Source: Clostridia bacterium (lineage in GTDB: Bacteria > Bacillota > Clostridia > Oscillospirales > Acutalibacteraceae). Taken from it: a stretch of 64,000 bases of DNA. Both the position numbers and the translations under genes were made by a program. The stretch lies in NCBI GenBank assembly GCA_017452785.1, contig JAFTLT010000021.1, positions 1 through 64,000 on the forward strand. The letters are read 5' to 3'. The notes under the pieces are model-generated. The model was not told the DNA's origin. It did not search any database and worked only from the letters and a program-made list of their open reading frames with translations. Positions 13,151 to 56,983 of the stretch are shown in pieces; within the stretch, counting starts at the first letter, position 1, and every line of letters begins with the position of its first letter.

Positions 13151-13179
13151 ATTATACCATAATTATACCATAGTGTCAA
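13151..13179 (-). promoter_or_regulatory. Toxin-antitoxin promoter with tandem operator repeats
   Basis: On the minus strand TTGACA (13179-13174), a 17-base spacer and TATAAT (13156-13151) form a perfect consensus. Two adjacent identical 11-mers, ATTATACCATA on the plus strand at 13151-13161 and 13162-13172, cover the -10 and the spacer, so a protein bound there would block the promoter. Confidence 0.8.
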
Positions 13180-42010: not shown

Positions 42011-42457
42011 ATCAGCACGTGACAACTTTGATAAAGAAAGAAGGACACACACTTTATATTTGCATAGACCTGTCATCGTAACACAATACTCTTTCTTTCT
42101 TAATTTTTTCTTTTCACAAATAAACGGTTACATGGGTGTTACGTCGGTCTCTGACCTTGCAGATGCATGTCATATCGTCGTCAGCGTTGCTTAAGGCGTT
42201 CTTTTTTTGAATGCCTTATTTACTCATTTCATATCGGCAACATCGGGTATTATATCTATTTATGACAAAATTGTCAAGTTTTATGCATTTTTGAGAGATT
42301 TTTACGGCTTTTTCAAAATGCAAAAAATGAATTTTAGAGTCGTTTTTTAGGTAAATGTTTATAAAATTCATTTTTGCGGCCCTCGTTTTTAGTGAAAAAC
42401 TACAAAAAAGCCAAAAACTACCGATTTTTACAGTTTTTAGGCAGTTTTGCACAAATG
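42011..42457. other. AT-rich intergenic region
   Basis: No gene was recognised. There are short pyrimidine/purine inverted repeats (AAAGAAAGA near 42033 and TCTTTCTTT near 42091), a GTAAC direct repeat near 42125-42142 and a T-rich hairpin near 42190-42220. Promoters for the lysozyme gene are probably here. Confidence 0.4.
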
Positions 42458-48202: not shown

Positions 48203-49951
48203 ATGAAAAAGAAAGCTATTGCATTACTCTTATCAATTGTAATGCTTTTCTCAGCAACCGCACTGCCTGCATCGGCAATTGACTTCGAGTCAGCAAGTGA
48301 GCCCGTAACCAAGGTGCTCGGCAAAGCTCTCGGTGCTGTGTTCACAGGATTTGTTTCAGTGCTAAATGCCTTTATGGGTGAAAATGACAAGTTCGTTGAA
48401 GCAGACGAATATGTTTATGACAATTTCTATGAGGGTACCGGTGAGTTTATATCTCAGGCTAAGCCCGGTGCAACATGGTCACTCGGTCAGGCTCAGGCAA
48501 GCCTTGTTCCCGAAGATTGGCAGGATGAAAAGTACGACCTTTACCTCGGTGGTTTTATCAGTGAGCAGAACTTCTTCACCAACGATGTCCGTGAAATTCT
48601 CGATGACATGAAGGTTCGTGTTATTGCTATGGATGACGGTTCAGGCAGAGGTACATCAGTATTTGCAACAATCGACTCAATCGGTATTGCTAACGGTGAT
48701 GCAAGAATTATCAGAGCAATGCTCAGCGATTACGCAAAGGAAAACAACATCAATTCAATCAATATTTTCTCCACACATACCCATTCAGGCATTGACACTC
48801 AGGGTCTGTGGACAGAAATCTTCCGTAAGTGGCCTAAAAACATTATGGCTGCTTTCACACGCATTGGTGAAACCGAGCAGGGAACTGACCCCGAATATAT
48901 GGACTTCCTTTATAATACTGTAACGGCTGCTATTAAAAATGCCGTTGACAATATGGAAGCAGGTATGATGACCTATGCTAAAAAGGATATCGGAGCTGAA
49001 TATTTCAACAATAAAAACAGACCTTCAGCAGACGGCCTTGACACAGAGCTCAGAAAGCTTACATTCTATCCTTCAAATAAATCTTCACGCCCCACAATAA
49101 TTCTCAATATGTCTTCACACCCTGATGTTGTTGGTCTTGCAACAGCTAGCGACCCGGTTAAGGGTCACGGTGTATCAGGTGACTATATCTATTATATCGG
49201 TGAAACACTCAACGGCGCAGGTTATGACTTCATGTTCTTTAACGGTGCAATTGCAGGCATCTATATCGGCAGCGTTGATGTTGACGCTCCCAGACGAGTT
49301 GACACAGCTGACAACTACGGCACAGAGATAGGCAAAATGGTTCTCGGCATGACAATGAGTGAAGAAGAAATCAAGGCTAACGAATACCTTATGAGCCTTA
49401 ATTTCACCGAGGAGCAGACAGCAGGTCACAACTATACTCCTTGGTACGAGGGTTGGGTACCTGCAAAGGAAGAAACTGTAGAGCCTATTCTCAACCTTAA
49501 GCTCAAGACAGTTGAAGTGCCTGTGACAAACCCTGTCATCAAGGCTGCAGGTAAGCTCGGTGTTGTTAACTACACTATCAAATGTTCAGGTCTTATCAAG
49601 AGAGACTATATCGTTACAACAGAAATCGGCTATATGGAAATCGGCAAGAGCATGCAGATTGCTTTTGTACCCGGCGAATTTTGTGCTGACCTCTGGAACG
49701 GCGGCAGCTCACTTACAGCTGAAGGCAGTATCCATGAGACTGCTTTTGAAGGCAAGACAATCACTGAAATTTTCGGTGAAGATACTGTTGTTTTCGGTCT
49801 TGCAAATGATGCAGTCGGTTACATTGTTCCTGATAACGACTATTGCATGTGCCTTGCATTCGGTCACTATCACGAAACACTTTCACTTGGTGAAAAGACA
49901 GCTTCAACTCTTATGAGTGCATATGAGGCTTTAGCTGAAGAAATTAAATAA
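48203..49951 (+). CDS. Exported neutral ceramidase-like hydrolase
   Basis: A 582-residue exported protein. Signal peptide 1-25 (MKKKAIALLLSIVMLFSATALPASA), then an amphipathic stretch (SEPVTKVLGKALGAVFTGFVSVLNAFMG). The core shows the metal-binding pattern of the neutral/alkaline ceramidase family: YDLYLGGFIS, VRVIAMDDGSGRG, NIFSTHTHSGIDTQG (His ligands), and later NMSSHPDVVG. In known relatives a zinc enzyme cleaves the amide of ceramide; in a gut bacterium it could release fatty acids from sphingolipids or another N-acyl lipid. AAGGAGGAAAA precedes the ATG. Substrate is inference. Confidence 0.78.
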   Translation: MKKKAIALLLSIVMLFSATALPASAIDFESASEPVTKVLGKALGAVFTGFVSVLNAFMGENDKFVEADEYVYDNFYEGTGEFISQAKPGATWSLGQAQASLVPEDWQDEKYDLYLGGFISEQNFFTNDVREILDDMKVRVIAMDDGSGRGTSVFATIDSIGIANGDARIIRAMLSDYAKENNINSINIFSTHTHSGIDTQGLWTEIFRKWPKNIMAAFTRIGETEQGTDPEYMDFLYNTVTAAIKNAVDNMEAGMMTYAKKDIGAEYFNNKNRPSADGLDTELRKLTFYPSNKSSRPTIILNMSSHPDVVGLATASDPVKGHGVSGDYIYYIGETLNGAGYDFMFFNGAIAGIYIGSVDVDAPRRVDTADNYGTEIGKMVLGMTMSEEEIKANEYLMSLNFTEEQTAGHNYTPWYEGWVPAKEETVEPILNLKLKTVEVPVTNPVIKAAGKLGVVNYTIKCSGLIKRDYIVTTEIGYMEIGKSMQIAFVPGEFCADLWNGGSSLTAEGSIHETAFEGKTITEIFGEDTVVFGLANDAVGYIVPDNDYCMCLAFGHYHETLSLGEKTASTLMSAYEALAEEIK

Positions 49952-51281: not shown

Positions 51282-51308
51282 GCAATGTCGTTAAGTTAAC
51301 GACATTGC
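51282..51308. repeat. Perfect 13-bp palindrome after the SDR gene
   Basis: GCAATGTCGTTAA, one base, and its exact complement. The right half recurs at 51452-51469 as TTAAGTTAATGACATTGC, so the two copies bracket the hairpin array. Confidence 0.7.
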
Positions 51309-51309
51309 A

Positions 51310-51401
51310 GTGATATATCTGCTTCGCAGATGTGATATTCGCCTACGGTGAGTGATATTTTGCCTGTGGCAAAGTGATATATTTGCCCTTTTAGGGCAAA
51401 T
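51310..51401 (+). repeat. Array of four small hairpins with constant linker GTGATAT
   Basis: Linker GTGATAT at 51310, 51332, 51352 and 51374. Stems: ATCTGC-TTC-GCAGAT (51317-51331), TCGCC-TAC-GGTGA (51339-51351, one wobble), TTTGCC-TGT-GGCAAA (51359-51373), ATTTGCCC-TTTTA-GGGCAAAT (51381-51401). Each stem is different but self-complementary. Reverse-complementing the linker gives ATATCAC, close to ACTTCAC of the array at 9555-9659. Confidence 0.85.
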
Positions 51402-51481: not shown

Positions 51482-51629
51482 CGAGTTGACGAAGCAGTAA
51501 GTTAGCTTCTGATTTATTAAATTTATATTATATCTTACTGTCATAATTTCGCAGTCTTGCCTTTGCATTCTCGTCGCCCCTGAAAGGGGAGATGTCGCAG
51601 CGGAGCCTGCGTAGCTGTGACAGAGGGGT
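51482..51629 (+). repeat. Direct repeat U1 (left of DUF559 gene)
   Basis: A 148-bp unit. Its last 94 bases (51536-51629) match 52249-52342 with a single mismatch; the first part also matches the right copy but less well. The 3' end, TGACAGAGGGGT, is one arm of the inverted repeat around the gene. Confidence 0.85.
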
Positions 51630-52101
51630 CCGGAAAGGAAACCTATATGGAAGATGAAAAAGATTACAGTTATACGGGTTATAACAATATATTAAAAGAA
51701 AAAGCCAGAAGCCTAAGAAAAAACATGACACCTCAGGAGCGGCGACTTTGGTTTTGCTTTTTGAAAAGCTATCCTGTTAAAATTGTTAGTCAACGCCCAA
51801 TTGGTATATACATAGCGGATTTCTACTGTTCAAAAGCTAAATTAGTCATTGAACTTGACGGCAGTCAGCATTACACCGATGATGGTGTGGATTACGATGA
51901 AAACCGTACCTATGTTATTAAACAATTTGGCGTAGAGGTTATACGGTTTTCTAATTATGATATAGACACAAATTTTGAGGGTGTATGTCTTGAAATAGAC
52001 AGAGTAATCAGTGAGAGAATAGGTCAGCCAAGGCATTTAGTGTGACCCCTCTGTCAGAAACCGCAAGGGTTTCTGACATCTCCCCTTTCAGGGGCGACGA
52101 G
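51570..52101 (+). mobile_element. Candidate DUF559-carrying mobile cassette with inverted ends
   Basis: The left arm 51570-51596 is the exact reverse complement of 52075-52101 (27 bp), and the inner 12-mer TGACAGAGGGGT (51618-51629) is the reverse complement of 52045-52056. Between outer and inner parts each arm has a different small hairpin. The DUF559 gene fills the interior, and the right inner arm begins at the last base of its stop codon. The cassette lies between direct repeats U1 and U3. Mobility is inferred. Confidence 0.55.
51647..52045 (+). CDS. DUF559 (restriction-endonuclease-like fold) protein
   Basis: A 132-residue protein. ARSLRKNMTPQERRLWFCFL is the DUF559 opening; IADFYCSKAKLVIELDGSQHY carries the PD-(D/E)xK-type core (Asp, then Glu-Leu-Asp-Gly), followed by DENRTYVIKQFGVEVIRFSNYDI. 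The family is related to very short patch repair-type nucleases, but cellular roles are not established. ATG at 51647 with GGAAAGGA upstream. Flanked by inverted and direct repeats, suggesting that the protein and the repeats form one mobile unit, comparable in logic to RAYT proteins with REP sequences; this is a hypothesis. Confidence 0.88.
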   Translation: MEDEKDYSYTGYNNILKEKARSLRKNMTPQERRLWFCFLKSYPVKIVSQRPIGIYIADFYCSKAKLVIELDGSQHYTDDGVDYDENRTYVIKQFGVEVIRFSNYDIDTNFEGVCLEIDRVISERIGQPRHLV

Positions 52102-52193
52102 CTGACGAAACGGAAAGTTTGCTTCTGATTTTATTATATCTTGCTGTCACAACTTTTCAGTCTTGCCTCAGCGTTATAGTCGCCACTTAAAGT
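52102..52193 (+). repeat. Degenerate repeat unit U2
   Basis: A diverged copy of the first half of U1/U3 (GCTGACGAAACGGAAAGTTTGCTTCTGATT-type start through a CAGTCTTGCCT match), standing directly between the right inverted arm and U3. Confidence 0.6.
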
Positions 52194-52342
52194 CGAGCTG
52201 ACGAAGCAGAAAGTTAACTTCTGATTTATAAATCTTGATATTATATCCTACTGTCATAATTTCGCAGTCTTGCCTCTGCATTCTCGTCGCCCCTGAAAGG
52301 GGAGATGTCGCAGCGGAGCCTGCGTAGCTGTGACAGAGGGGT
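52194..52342 (+). repeat. Direct repeat U3 (right of DUF559 gene)
   Basis: Second full copy of the U1 unit; 52249-52342 differs from 51536-51629 at one base of 94. Confidence 0.85.
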
Positions 52343-52346
52343 AAAA

Positions 52347-52374
52347 CAAAAACCCACCAATCGGTGGGCTTTTA
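52347..52374 (-). terminator. Terminator of the third mini-gene
   Basis: On the minus strand AAGCCCACC-GATT-GGTGGGTT is followed by TTTGTTTT, 11 bases past the stop of the 40-codon gene. Confidence 0.85.
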
Positions 52375-52384
52375 TTTTGATTAA

Positions 52385-52507
52385 TTATTTGTTGAAGCTG
52401 TCGATTGTCTCTTCGATTGAAGCGATTGTTTCTTCGTCAACACCGAAGAGCTTAAGAAGGTCAACAAAAAGTTCTGCGAACTTGAAAACAAGTGCCTTTA
52501 CGTCCAT
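52385..52507 (-). CDS. Mini-gene C: 40-residue acidic amphipathic peptide
   Basis: Sequence begins MDVKALVFKFAELFVDLLKL, then FGVDEETIASIEETIDSFNK. Net charge is about -5, with hydrophobic residues spaced for an amphipathic helix in the first half. GGAGGTAAT lies before the ATG; a perfect consensus promoter (52563-52591) and a terminator frame the gene. There is no signal peptide. Favoured codons (CTT, CTC, ATC, AAG, GAA) match highly expressed genes. Size and helicity recall PSM-beta-like peptides or small membrane-active or regulatory proteins; no homology is claimed. Confidence 0.75.
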   Translation of the reverse strand: MDVKALVFKFAELFVDLLKLFGVDEETIASIEETIDSFNK

Positions 52508-52562
52508 CGTATATTACCTCCGTTAATATTTTCAGACAAAGCCAATTTAATTGTCTGCTAAA

Positions 52563-52591
52563 ATTATACATTAGTGTACACGATTTGTCAA
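52563..52591 (-). promoter_or_regulatory. Perfect consensus promoter of mini-gene C
   Basis: Minus strand TTGACA (52591-52586), 17-base spacer, TATAAT (52568-52563). A second TTGACA-like hexamer lies just upstream. Predicted leader about 50 nt. Confidence 0.9.
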
Positions 52592-52622
52592 CATTATTGT
52601 CAAACTTCTTTAACATTTTTAA

Positions 52623-52655
52623 TAAAAAAGTGCCGACCCGTAAGGGTCGGCATCT
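52623..52655 (-). terminator. Terminator of mini-gene B
   Basis: Minus strand TGCCGACCC-TTAC-GGGTCGGCA followed by CTTTTTTATT. Confidence 0.9.
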
Positions 52656-52679
52656 TAAGCTATTTGCAAATAACTTAAA

Positions 52680-52814
52680 TTATTCAGCGGGTGTGTAGGG
52701 GAGTTCTTCTTCTTCTGCTACGAAGCCGAAAACCTTAACCATAACATCTTCGATGAGAGCGATGAGTGCTTCCCATGAGAAATCTTCGATGAGTGCCTTG
52801 ATTGCGTCTAACAT
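52680..52814 (-). CDS. Mini-gene B: 44-residue acidic amphipathic peptide
   Basis: Sequence begins MLDAIKALIEDFSWEALIAL, then IEDVMVKVFGFVAEEEELPYTPAE. Net charge about -9, one tryptophan, no signal peptide. The ATG is preceded by AAGGAGGATACT. It lies 52 bases after mini-gene A without an intervening hairpin, so A and B are probably one transcript ending at the terminator at 52623. The VFGF and EEEE stretch parallels LFGV...EE in mini-gene C, suggesting common ancestry. Function unknown. Confidence 0.75.
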   Translation of the reverse strand: MLDAIKALIEDFSWEALIALIEDVMVKVFGFVAEEEELPYTPAE

Positions 52815-52866
52815 TGTTAGTATCCTCCTTCTTCAGTATTTTAAAAAATTGTTTTTTTGCTCGATA

Positions 52867-52980
52867 TTAGAGAATTTCGTCGAGGTCGATTTCAGGAAGT
52901 TCAACCTTGAGAATGCTCTTTACGAATTCGATGATCTCGTTGAAAAGTGATTCGAGAGCAGCCTTGATTTCTTCTGTCAT
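52867..52980 (-). CDS. Mini-gene A: 37-residue acidic amphipathic peptide
   Basis: Sequence begins MTEEIKAALESLFNEIIEFV, then KSILKVELPEIDLDEIL. Net charge about -7, a continuous amphipathic helix to about residue 26. AAGGAGGAC precedes the ATG and a perfect consensus promoter lies 55 bases upstream. First gene of the A-B pair. No signal peptide, no transporter or modification gene nearby. Candidate for a very abundant small protein. Confidence 0.75.
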   Translation of the reverse strand: MTEEIKAALESLFNEIIEFVKSILKVELPEIDLDEIL

Positions 52981-53034
52981 TGTGAAAGTCCTCCTTATTA
53001 GATTTACTTACGAGGTATTCTCTTAAGTACTTAC

Positions 53035-53063
53035 ATTATATATAATAAAAAACATCTTGTCAA
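53035..53063 (-). promoter_or_regulatory. Perfect consensus promoter of mini-genes A and B
   Basis: Minus strand TTGACA (53063-53058), 17-base spacer, TATAAT (53040-53035). Confidence 0.9.
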
Positions 53064-53293: not shown

Positions 53294-56200
53294 TTATTTA
53301 AAGTATTTCACTGCGCTGCCGAACATCTTGATGTCATAATCACCAAGCACATTCTTATAAAGACCGTAGCCGATTCTTTCACTGTGACCCATCTTACCGA
53401 ATACTCGTCCGTCAGGTGAAGTGATACCCTCAATAGCAAACATTGAATCATTGGGGTTAAAGTGAATATCGTTTGTTGCCTTGCCGTCGAAATCAACATA
53501 CTGGGTTGCAATCTGTCCGTTTTTGGCAAGCTCAAGAATTGTCTTTTCATCGCTGAGAAAACGGCCTTCACCGTGTGAAATAGGCACATTGTAGATGTCG
53601 CCAACATTTGTGTCAGCAAGCCAAGGGCTCATATTTGATGCAATTCTTGTTCTCACAATGCGTGACTGGTGGCGTGCAATTGTGTTGAATGTAAGGGTAG
53701 GCATGTTTTCCTCTGAGTCAACTATCTTGCCATAGGGCACAAGACCCAGCTTAATAAGAGCTTGGAAGCCGTTGCAGATACCGCACATAAGACCGTCTCT
53801 CTTTTCAAGAAGGTCTGTTACCTGCTCCTTGATAGCTGCATTGCGGAAGAAGGCTGTGATAAATTTACCGCTGCCGTCGGGCTCGTCACCGCCTGAGAAA
53901 CCGCCGGGAATGAATATCATCTGTGCTGTTTCAAGCTCCTTGGCAAAGGTTTCAACGCTTCTCTGAATGCCGTCAGCACTCAGGTTATTTATAACGATAA
54001 TCTTGCTTTCAGCGCCTGCATCGTCCATGGCCTTAGCTGAGTCAAATTCGCAGTTTGTGCCGGGGAAAACGGGGATAAGCACCTTGGGCTTAGCTGTCTT
54101 GATAGCGGGAGCGACTCTCTTTGCACAGTCATATGAGAAGGTCTCAACCTTTGACTTTGACTGGTCAATATTGCATGAGTAAACGCTTTCGAGCTTGTTT
54201 TCGTACACGCCTAAGAGTGCGCCGAGAGCTACTTCTTCGCCGCCCATCTTAATGGTACCATTATCAGTGATATAACCGATAGTTTCGCCTTCGTTTACAT
54301 CTTCACTAACTTCAAGCAGGAAACTGCCATAAACATATGAGAAAGCATTTTCTACGCTGATGCCGTCTGCATATGTGAAGCCAAGACCGTTACCGAAGCA
54401 CATTTTCATAACTGCCTCTGCCACGCCGCCGAAACCGGGAGTGTAGCAGGAAACTGCCTTACCGCTTCTGAGAAGCTCAGTAACCTTGTCAAACACACCA
54501 AGAAGTGATTCAGTTACGGGCAGGTGGTCACTGTCAAATTCGGGGGTAAGCTTAATAAGCTTGTTGTCTGCCTTTTTGAATTCAGGTGAAACAACATTCT
54601 CGACCTTGTCAGTTGTCACTGCAAATGAAACGAGAGTGGGGGGTACATCAAGATTTTCAAAAGTACCGCTCATTGAGTCCTTGCCGCCGATAGCTGCAAC
54701 CTTAAGGTCTTTCTGAGCCTTGAAAGCACCTAAAAGAGCTGAAAGAGGCTTGCCCCAACGCTTCGGGTCTTTGCCGGGTCTCTCGAAATATTCCTGGAAG
54801 GTGAGATAAACGTCCTCAAATGAAGCACCTGTTGCAATTAGCTTGCAGACTGATTCAATAACAGCCATATATGCGCCGTGGAAAGGTGTCTTTTCTGTAT
54901 AGAAGGGATTGTAACCCCATGACATAAGTGAGCAGTCATTGGTGTGCCCCTTTTCAGTTGAGATAAGCTGAACCATTGCCTGAATGGGAGTGAGCTGATT
55001 TTTACCTCCAAAGGGCATAAGCACTGTGCCTGCGCCGATTGTGGAGTCGAAGCGTTCACTGAGGCCTCTCTTTGAGCAGACATTAAGGTCAGCTGCAAGA
55101 GCGTTCATATTATCTGTGAAATTGCCCTCAATTTTCTTCATGGGGCATTGAGGAGCAGCAGCCTCAATATCAATATGCTTTTCAGCACCGTTTGAGTTAA
55201 GGAAGTCACGGCTGATGTCAACGATAGCCTTACCGTTCCAATACATTGTAAGACGCTTTTCGGCCTTAACATTTGCCACAACAGTAGCGTTAAGGTTTTC
55301 TTTCTTTGCGAGAGCGAGGAAGCCGTCAATGTTTTCTTTTTCGATAACAACAGCCATTCTTTCCTGGCTTTCACTGATTGCAAGCTCTGTGCCGTCAAGA
55401 CCTTCGTACTTCTTGGGCACTGCATTAAGGTCAATTTCGAGACCGTCTGCCAGTTCACCTATAGCAACACTGACGCCGCCTGCACCGAAGTCATTACAGC
55501 GCTTAATCATGCGGCAGGCTTCTTTGTTTCTGAAAAGTCTCTGCAGCTTTCTTTCCTCTGGTGCATTACCCTTCTGAACCTCTGCACCGCAGGTCTCAAG
55601 GCTTTCCATTGTGTGTGACTTTGATGAGCCTGTTGCACCGCCGCAGCCGTCACGACCTGTAGCACCGCCTAAAAGGATAACAACGTCACCGTCTTCGGGG
55701 CATTCTCGTCTTACATTTTCCTGAGGAGCAGCAGCCACAACAGCACCGATTTCCATTCTCTTAGCTGTGTAGCCTTCGTGATAAAGCTCGTCAACAATAC
55801 CAGTTGCAAGGCCAATCTGGTTGCCGTATGAAGAATAACCTGCAGCTGCAGTTGTAACAATCTTTCTCTGAGGCAGCTTGCCGGGAATAGTTTCAGCCAC
55901 GCTCTTTAAGGGGTCACCTGCACCTGTTACACGCATAGCACCGTAAACATAGCTTCTGCCTGAAAGGGGGTCACGTATAGCACCGCCTATGCAGGTTGCA
56001 GCGCCGCCGAAGGGCTCGATTTCAGTGGGGTGGTTATGAGTTTCATTTTTGAAAAGAAGAAGCCAAGGCTCTTTTTTGCCGTCAATTTCAACTTCAATTT
56101 TAACTGTGCAAGCGTTGATTTCTTCGCTTTCATCTAATTTGTCAAGATAGCCCTTAGCTTTAAGATATTTGCCTGCAAGAGTGCCGATATCCATAAGGCA

Positions 56201-56983
56201 TATGGGCTTTGTTCTGCCGAGCTCTTTTCTTGTTTCGATATAATCGTCATAAGCTCTCTGCAAAAGCTCGTCCTCAAACTTGACACTGTCAATGGTTGTC
56301 AGGAATGTGGTATGACGGCAGTGGTCTGACCAGTATGTATCAATCATACGGATTTCAGTGATAGTGGGGTTTCTGCCTTCCTTTTTGAAGTAGTCCTGAC
56401 AGAAAGCTATATCATCGTTATCCATAGCAAGAGCATACTTCTTAACAAAATCTGCAAGTCCGTCACTGTCAAGGTCAATGAAACCTTCGAGAGTTTCAAC
56501 CTCAGTGGGAATGTCATATTTTGTCTTGAGCGTTTCAGCTGCTTCAAGTGAAGCCTCTCTTGACTCAACGGGGTTGATAACATACTTTTTGATTTCAGCA
56601 AGCTCTGCCTCAGTTACATCACCGTAAAGCAGATAAACCTTTGCAGTCTTGACTGTGGGTCTTTCGCCCTGTGAGATAATCTGAATACACTGAGCAGCTG
56701 AGTCAGCTCTCTGGTCAAACTGACCGGGCAGAGGCTCAACTGCAAAAACTGTAGCCCCCTCAGTGCTGAGAGCTTCGCTTGTTATATCAAGCTGAGGCTC
56801 TGAGAAAACATTTTTAACTGCATAATCAAAAAGTGACTTCTCAATATCTTCTGCATCATAGCGGTTGATAACACGAATATCATTTACGCTCTTGATGCCG
56901 AGCAGTGAGTTGATGTCGCCAAGAAGACCTTTTGCTTCGTTAGCGAGTTCCTTTTTCTTTTCAACATATATGCGATATACCAT
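53294..56983 (-). CDS. purL: Phosphoribosylformylglycinamidine synthase (single chain)
   Basis: A 1229-residue enzyme converting FGAR, glutamine and ATP to FGAM, step four of IMP synthesis. It contains both synthetase halves and a C-terminal glutaminase: RMIDTYWSDHCRHTTF near 210, LFKNETHNHPTEIEPFGGAATCIGG near 310, FGAGGVSVAIGELADGLEIDL in the middle, and GTNCEFDSAKAMDDAGAE with the nucleophile in LMCGICNGFQALIKLG. The start codon abuts the purD stop, and AAGGAGGC lies within purD's final codons. Last gene of the operon. Confidence 0.97.
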   Translation of the reverse strand: MVYRIYVEKKKELANEAKGLLGDINSLLGIKSVNDIRVINRYDAEDIEKSLFDYAVKNVFSEPQLDITSEALSTEGATVFAVEPLPGQFDQRADSAAQCIQIISQGERPTVKTAKVYLLYGDVTEAELAEIKKYVINPVESREASLEAAETLKTKYDIPTEVETLEGFIDLDSDGLADFVKKYALAMDNDDIAFCQDYFKKEGRNPTITEIRMIDTYWSDHCRHTTFLTTIDSVKFEDELLQRAYDDYIETRKELGRTKPICLMDIGTLAGKYLKAKGYLDKLDESEEINACTVKIEVEIDGKKEPWLLLFKNETHNHPTEIEPFGGAATCIGGAIRDPLSGRSYVYGAMRVTGAGDPLKSVAETIPGKLPQRKIVTTAAAGYSSYGNQIGLATGIVDELYHEGYTAKRMEIGAVVAAAPQENVRRECPEDGDVVILLGGATGRDGCGGATGSSKSHTMESLETCGAEVQKGNAPEERKLQRLFRNKEACRMIKRCNDFGAGGVSVAIGELADGLEIDLNAVPKKYEGLDGTELAISESQERMAVVIEKENIDGFLALAKKENLNATVVANVKAEKRLTMYWNGKAIVDISRDFLNSNGAEKHIDIEAAAPQCPMKKIEGNFTDNMNALAADLNVCSKRGLSERFDSTIGAGTVLMPFGGKNQLTPIQAMVQLISTEKGHTNDCSLMSWGYNPFYTEKTPFHGAYMAVIESVCKLIATGASFEDVYLTFQEYFERPGKDPKRWGKPLSALLGAFKAQKDLKVAAIGGKDSMSGTFENLDVPPTLVSFAVTTDKVENVVSPEFKKADNKLIKLTPEFDSDHLPVTESLLGVFDKVTELLRSGKAVSCYTPGFGGVAEAVMKMCFGNGLGFTYADGISVENAFSYVYGSFLLEVSEDVNEGETIGYITDNGTIKMGGEEVALGALLGVYENKLESVYSCNIDQSKSKVETFSYDCAKRVAPAIKTAKPKVLIPVFPGTNCEFDSAKAMDDAGAESKIIVINNLSADGIQRSVETFAKELETAQMIFIPGGFSGGDEPDGSGKFITAFFRNAAIKEQVTDLLEKRDGLMCGICNGFQALIKLGLVPYGKIVDSEENMPTLTFNTIARHQSRIVRTRIASNMSPWLADTNVGDIYNVPISHGEGRFLSDEKTILELAKNGQIATQYVDFDGKATNDIHFNPNDSMFAIEGITSPDGRVFGKMGHSERIGYGLYKNVLGDYDIKMFGSAVKYFK

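Follow-up and report, generated by a model that had tools for sequence, protein, structure and literature searches.

Three short genes lying in a row on the minus strand of a 64,000-nucleotide stretch of DNA from a Clostridia bacterium of the Acutalibacteraceae (assembly GCA_017452785.1, contig JAFTLT010000021.1; the whole stretch is referred to here as the window) are real coding genes under purifying selection. Their products, P1, P2 and P3, are leaderless acidic mini-proteins (minis) belonging to a family that, in the genomes sampled of the order, is confined to one apparently uncultured genus of Oscillospirales from the gut. Codon bias and promoters suggest that the mini-genes rank with the most highly expressed genes there. 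From sequence features and analogy with known peptides, the minis may be exported surface-active peptides of the PSM type that act at membranes or lipid surfaces and perhaps hold tailed hydrolases there, a reading that is preferred here but held tentatively.

An earlier note on this DNA had described three leaderless acidic frames of 37, 44 and 40 codons with charges near -7, -9 and -5, strong Shine-Dalgarno sequences, and two transcription units that each carry a consensus promoter and a strong terminator. These elements were all found again on the minus strand, and the locus is laid out as follows:

53294-56983, purL (named from its sequence), the upstream flank of the trio
53035..53063, minus strand, promoter of P1-P2, TTGACA-17-TATAAT, an exact 12/12 match to the sigma-A consensus
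53006..53028, minus strand, 5' UTR hairpin of P1-P2 (-5.8 kcal/mol; 3/100 shuffles as stable)
52990..52995, minus strand, Shine-Dalgarno AGGAGG of P1, nine bases from the ATG
52867..52980, minus strand, P1, a 37-aa acidic amphipathic mini-protein of charge -7, first gene of the two-gene unit P1-P2
52824..52829, minus strand, Shine-Dalgarno AGGAGG of P2, nine bases from the ATG
52680..52814, minus strand, P2, a 44-aa acidic mini-protein of charge -9, second gene of the unit
52655..52678, minus strand, imperfect palindrome TTAAGTTATTTGCAAATAGCTTAA after P2, read directly in the sequence
52631..52652, minus strand, intrinsic terminator of P1-P2, a 9-bp stem followed by a T run
52563..52591, minus strand, promoter of P3, TTGACA-17-TATAAT, an exact 12/12 match to the sigma-A consensus
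52534..52556, minus strand, possible 5' UTR hairpin of P3, weak (-4.5 kcal/mol; 9/100 shuffles as stable)
52517..52521, minus strand, Shine-Dalgarno GGAGG of P3, nine bases from the ATG
52385..52507, minus strand, P3, a 40-aa acidic mini-protein of charge -5, in its own transcription unit
52353..52368, minus strand, terminator of P3, a 6-bp stem followed by a T run
51617-52045, plus strand, DUF559 frame, the other flank of the trio

The purL-P1-P2-P3 locus is old. Genome G005, with a PurL fragment 77% identical to the PurL of the window, shares the gene order purL, P1-type, P2-type, P3-type, SDR gene, small lipoprotein-like gene and ileS, the window differing by two extra frames in between (the DUF559 frame and 48203-49951). 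Eight mini-genes lie immediately downstream of purL in G032. The sequence TGAATTTTCTA stands directly before the P1-P2 promoter, with similar sequences in several relatives, and, by eye, G022 and G018 carry a near-copy of the palindrome after their P2-type gene and its counterpart, respectively. A repeat (CCCCTCTGTCACAGCTACGCAGGCTCCGCTGCGACATCTCCCCTTTCAGGGG...) was seen by eye, in direct and in part inverted copies, at about 51540-51625, 52040-52160 and 52250-52345 of the window; these repeats around the DUF559 frame possibly mark a small mobile element adjoining the mini-genes. A Gut-1 RNA (Rfam RF01706) also occurs in the window, at 51308-51385 on the plus strand (59.8 bits, with a gathering score of 50).

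The earlier note had proposed a comparison of relatives for coding constraint, and the constraint is evident. Eighteen pairs of related mini-genes, 718 codons in all, give a pooled dN of 0.177 and dS of 0.766, a ratio of 0.23; the pairs are clear relatives picked by eye, some share a sequence and one has a saturated dS. In six pairs made up of an own gene and one of G008, dN/dS is 0.21. The search of related Clostridia suggested at the same time yielded relatives of P1 and P2 in congeners: P1 has relatives in G022, G018, G032, G005 and G011, and the G022 counterparts of P1 (E 1.4e-4) and P2 (E 2.7e-8) lie in the same order on one contig. P3 alone as query gave zero matches at E 0.01 among 34 congeners and one match inside a 258-aa frame of G050, a genome of another genus. 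When P3 is compared with the 115 minis described below, the closest is a gene of G002C33, with the G005C13 gene at the corresponding position and another G002C33 gene tied behind it. Frames as short as these can arise by chance, but the idea of chance open frames with no coding function is contradicted by the dN/dS of 0.23, by the codon bias of the mini-genes and by 1.08 Mb of control sequence in which the detector gave 20 frames, of which a single one was acidic and amphipathic, and it can be given practically no credence. An RNA element in place of genes was likewise rejected, as Rfam models gave only sub-threshold matches over the minis.

The resemblance among the three peptides remarked on in the earlier note proved to extend much further, the trio being part of a genus-wide family. 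Mini-genes led by a Shine-Dalgarno sequence were read directly in 21/35 genomes of the genus, in rows of 1-12. From loci fetched for their matches, 115 distinct minis were drawn with a filter that called for AGGAGG, GGAGG or AGGAG 3-11 nt 5' of the ATG, a length of 24-70 aa, a net charge of at most +1, fewer than 3 Cys, and a position not mostly within a frame of at least 120 aa. These minis are 26-57 aa long (mean 39.5 aa) with a mean charge of -4.55 and very little Cys, His or Arg; a few of them are probably false (e.g., L251 5052-5147). Their acidity is not a product of the charge filter, because only 1/104 Shine-Dalgarno-led frames of the array regions exceeds +1 with that filter off. Most minis have a near-consensus sigma-A promoter and a strong Shine-Dalgarno sequence, and many units end in a terminator. 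The own genome encodes at least ten mini-genes: three in the window, three on contig C10, two on C12 and one each on C44 and C9.

The family profile A3, built from 47 members, finds matches in 35/35 genomes of the genus at E 0.1, some of them inside large frames, and at E 0.01 in 4/295 genomes of the order, namely the own genome and three others. Three matches of this profile outside the genus all fall within large frames of 485-1147 aa. The named records whose purL comes close, at up to 88% identity, are MAGs, many from ruminant gut. The 1.08 Mb of control sequence came from around purL of 80 such named records, and its single acidic amphipathic frame indicates that the named records with the closest purL have no array near that gene. 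As the earlier note had surmised, the peptides belong to no recognized family: matches of P1-P3 in Pfam, NCBIfam and PHROGs are all far below the curated cut-offs, and the minis as a group have no convincing match in Pfam, NCBIfam, PHROGs or PADLOC. Nor did literature searches on small amphipathic proteins in Clostridia, rumen microproteins and similar subjects, covering open-licence PMC papers, turn up a description of the family.

Very high expression had been predicted from the promoters, Shine-Dalgarno sequences and terminators, and codon usage now points the same way. Perfect TTGACA-17-TATAAT sites number 4 in the window, where shuffles lead to an expectation of 0.05. The two sites other than those of the trio are at 13151-13179 and 42249-42277, both on the minus strand. 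The promoters before P1-P2 and P3 are exact, as claimed, but they are not unique, since the own genome holds 73 such sites; 22 congeners hold 49-85 each, with 0-2 for reversed-pattern controls. The notion that a perfect promoter is exceptional is ruled out by these 73 copies, and the perfect promoter here marks a strong, common class. Across 36 loci, a promoter matching at least 10/12 positions within 115 nt precedes 77/103 mini-genes as compared with 38/2060 base-shuffled upstream stretches, and the mini-genes without one include second genes of two-gene units.

The codon adaptation values of P1, P2 and P3 are 0.902, 0.874 and 0.829, exceeding those of all 31 other window genes chosen for comparison (mean 0.617, highest 0.768). 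The reference consisted of eight ribosomal-protein frames of two congeners, recognized by eye (L116, L119), whose own values are 0.62 to 0.86. When codons for the trio proteins were drawn at background frequencies, the observed adaptation was reached in 0 to 2 of 2000 draws; the same test was without significance for 2/10 mini-genes of the own genome (contigs C9 and C10). Leaders of the family show structure as well. Folding was possible for 67 of the 77 leaders, the others being too short; about 42 of the folded ones (a count taken from the fold table) are at least as stable as all but at most 5/100 shuffles, mostly due to one short hairpin upstream of the Shine-Dalgarno sequence. Several first mini-genes have TGAATT or a near form immediately 5' of CTATTGACA, and the motif TGAATTNNCTATTGACA was seen upstream of several first genes.

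The minis are predicted to be helical. AlphaFold models P1 as a helix at residues 2-27 with a short one at 33-36 (mean pLDDT 88.8; 9-row alignment) and P2 as helices at 2-10 and 14-36 (mean pLDDT 81; 5-row alignment). The helical hydrophobic spacing reported earlier stands for P1, which is clearly amphipathic against shuffles (p 0.003), whereas P2 (p 0.063) and P3 (p 0.103) are weakly so. Over the family, the hydrophobic moment is above that of shuffles at p<0.05 in 107/115 minis. Judged by eye, neither the trio nor the other minis carry a signal peptide, in keeping with the leaderless state first noted.

The comparison with PSM-beta made in the earlier note holds for the pattern but not for membership. 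In a search of all PDB sequences with the family profile, PSM-alpha-3 chains rank first (best E 0.0042), a match which may reflect shared amphipathic periodicity alone and not descent. The PSM-beta (staph_haemo) domain of Pfam is absent from P1-P3 at E 10 and from 47 family members at E 0.1; the minis are therefore not PSM family members by domain. They share with staphylococcal PSM-alpha and PSM-beta a short leaderless amphipathic helix and an arrangement in several tandem genes. One study states that PSM-beta clusters usually comprise two to six genes, that some of the peptides are negative and that they have no signal peptide (PMC5585272). The minis differ in belonging to another bacterial class, in forming many dissimilar subfamilies within one genus, in their near-uniform acidity and in their separate consensus promoters. 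The kind of peptide is already known from staphylococci, and the minis are a separate, larger, acidic and genus-wide version of it.

A further feature concerns the second residue, which is Asp or Glu in 63/115 minis and in 10/135 larger Shine-Dalgarno-led frames, while a small residue occupies this position in 15/115 and 49/135, respectively. The identity of residue 2 predicts whether the initiator methionine stays, and from this bias the minis are predicted to keep theirs.

Candidate partners for the minis are exported lipase-like hydrolases. The 35 genomes of the genus encode 533 LCAT/abhydrolase-like proteins, whose start resembles a signal peptide and which match LCAT/abhydrolase families weakly, 8-23 per genome (L413-L442; L245 5463-8938; L114 9483-11156). 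In the best match from each of 30 genomes, out of the 533, the C-terminal tail is amphipathic at p<0.05 in 29/30 (p 0.055 in the remaining one), with a mean moment of 0.632 as against 0.402 for internal stretches. The best 18-mer has a mean charge of +2.07 in the tails and of -0.77 in the minis. The mini profile matches 4/30 of the tails at E 0.0025-0.019 in a search of the 30 proteins, and at other loci it matches esterases at the N-terminus and proteins that look exported at the C-terminus. The tails, sampled from the genus only, may be unrelated to the minis. Several esterase-like and other proteins begin with an FFxKIIAFFMxIIAFF-like hydrophobic or amphipathic segment which is not a classic signal peptide (L276 1044-1946, with a BD-FAE match; L267 2068-3027; L278 356-1321; L282 1232-2128; L280 1382-1963).

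Lipase-like genes are enriched near minis by count, with 9 in 340 kb and about 2.2 expected, but they represent about five independent sites, so that the proximity is not convincing. A precedent for such a partnership is found in Staphylococcus aureus LspU, which a published study describes as a PSM-like protein encoded on the mRNA of the lipase SAL1, exported by PSM transporters and, when expressed, trapping lipases at the cell surface (PMC12607899). LspU, a small PSM-like protein tied to a secreted lipase, is one of the closest known systems. It differs from the minis in its place on the lipase mRNA; the mini-genes carry promoters of their own, with lipase-like genes close by at some loci only.

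The PDB match, the residue-2 bias, the tailed hydrolases and the LspU precedent are four hints that point to a PSM-like, surface-active mode of action. If so, the mini-proteins would be produced abundantly, retain their initiator methionine and leave the cell without a signal peptide through a putative exporter. Their amphipathic helix would then lie on membranes or lipid-water interfaces, as with PSM-type peptides, and, by analogy with LspU, the minis could hold exported lipase-like hydrolases, which have similar but cationic tails, near cell or lipid surfaces. Results that count against this proposal include the weak amphipathicity of P2 and P3 relative to shuffles and the absence of a recurrent ABC exporter beside the mini-genes. 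Mini loci lie beside varied chromosomal genes or a capsid cassette, and their neighbors vary by locus. In 275 neighboring proteins, most without a name, there is no recurring ABC transporter or immunity-like family. A MATE-type efflux gene, adjoining one mini subfamily in four genomes, is the sole transporter gene that recurs as a neighbor, and MATE-type transporters are not known to export peptides. That gene adjoins a mini of the FFxFVETYxxDIxAFF subfamily in G000, G015, G018 and G025 (L244 3253-4653, with Pfam MatE; L256 5056-6426; L260 1864-3231; L117 6496-7878). Another subfamily (EPDWSLLMFWEDITDLIQKLFNFIKSLF) is found beside a response regulator/histidine kinase pair and lipase-like genes in G000 and G008 (L245 2678-4982, where the pair is assigned by Pfam; L263 1251-3600).

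The main rival is that the minis are membrane-binding microproteins which are never exported. Cytosolic or bound to the inner membrane, these abundant amphipathic helices would cover that membrane, modulate one of its proteins, or mask the sticky cationic tails of the hydrolases before export, for which their opposite charge would suit them. The lack of a signal peptide and of a recurrent ABC exporter fits this reading, as do the purifying selection on subfamilies across species, which is typical of housekeeping parts, and the MATE-type membrane transporter gene adjoining one subfamily. However, no single membrane system travels with the family. This alternative is a real possibility and is itself somewhat improbable; the exporter gap, the small number of independent lipase sites (about five) and the sampling of tails within one genus are what keep the preference for exported PSM-type peptides tentative beside it.

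A more elaborate form of the exported reading is a two-part sticky-helix system, specific to the genus, in which many free acidic minis would form an abundant coat at the surface or outside the cell and capture, through pairing of oppositely charged helices, the cationic amphipathic tails of a large set of exported hydrolases, lipase-like and other. This form is rather unlikely.

Leaderless bacteriocins or other antagonistic peptides are an improbable identity for the minis. Multi-peptide leaderless (class II) bacteriocins are likewise small, with several peptides encoded side by side, and the mini-genes are tandem, small and leaderless, include two-gene units and reach up to 12 different minis per row. 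However, most leaderless bacteriocins are cationic, and dedicated genes for transport and immunity accompany them, whereas the minis have a mean charge of -4.55 and a charge above 0 in 1/115 (collected with the filter of at most +1), and neither an ABC transporter nor an immunity-like family recurs nearby. Because of this acidity and these neighborhoods, the minis are not typical leaderless bacteriocins. For the PSM-beta peptides of S. capitis, lower antibacterial activity was reported for negatively charged members than for neutral members (PMC5585272).

A tail-less phage capsid cassette is present in nearly every genome of the genus, and the minis might be helpers of this domesticated element. 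The cassette consists of terS, terL, portal, an unnamed gene in the protease position, a virion protein, the major capsid gene and three small genes, and it sits among housekeeping-like genes (own C12, L244 5874-12304, minus strand; G032, L444 4806-11640; G301, L446 8078-14143; terL loci L284-L332). No tail, lysis or integrase genes were recognized by eye around it in the stretches read. terL occurs in 34/35 genomes of the genus, as a single match in all but two of them, and related terL genes, some only distant, occur in 58/294 other genomes of the order. Identity ranks of terL and purL correlate with a rho of 0.49 (n 30). The cassette may represent a gene-transfer-agent-like or capsid-forming element maintained by vertical inheritance.

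At 18/30 loci of the genus, terL has a mini of one subfamily no more than 1.5 kb away, by a profile built from those same loci, and P1-type genes adjoin the cassette in G022 and G018. Against a role in the cassette, that mini is missing from the other 12/30 loci, 0/19 terL loci of other genera have a type-B mini, and the window trio and several other minis are on contigs or in places away from it. The association is real in part of the genus but absent at 12/30 genus loci and 19/19 loci of other genera, and the capsid-helper reading is very improbable. A phage origin is also disfavored for subfamilies A6 and A7, which have no confirmed relative in viral contigs.

Frames as short as these mini-genes are usually discarded by gene finders. 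If the minis are PSM-like, as is tentatively preferred, leaderless amphipathic peptides would have arisen outside staphylococci, in an anaerobic gut lineage, and then grown into a large family. Should they keep tailed hydrolases at the cell, they would represent a new means of retaining secreted enzymes. The sticky-helix system, if true, would amount to a cell-bound lipid-processing assembly and a protein-only alternative to cohesin-dockerin or sortase anchoring.
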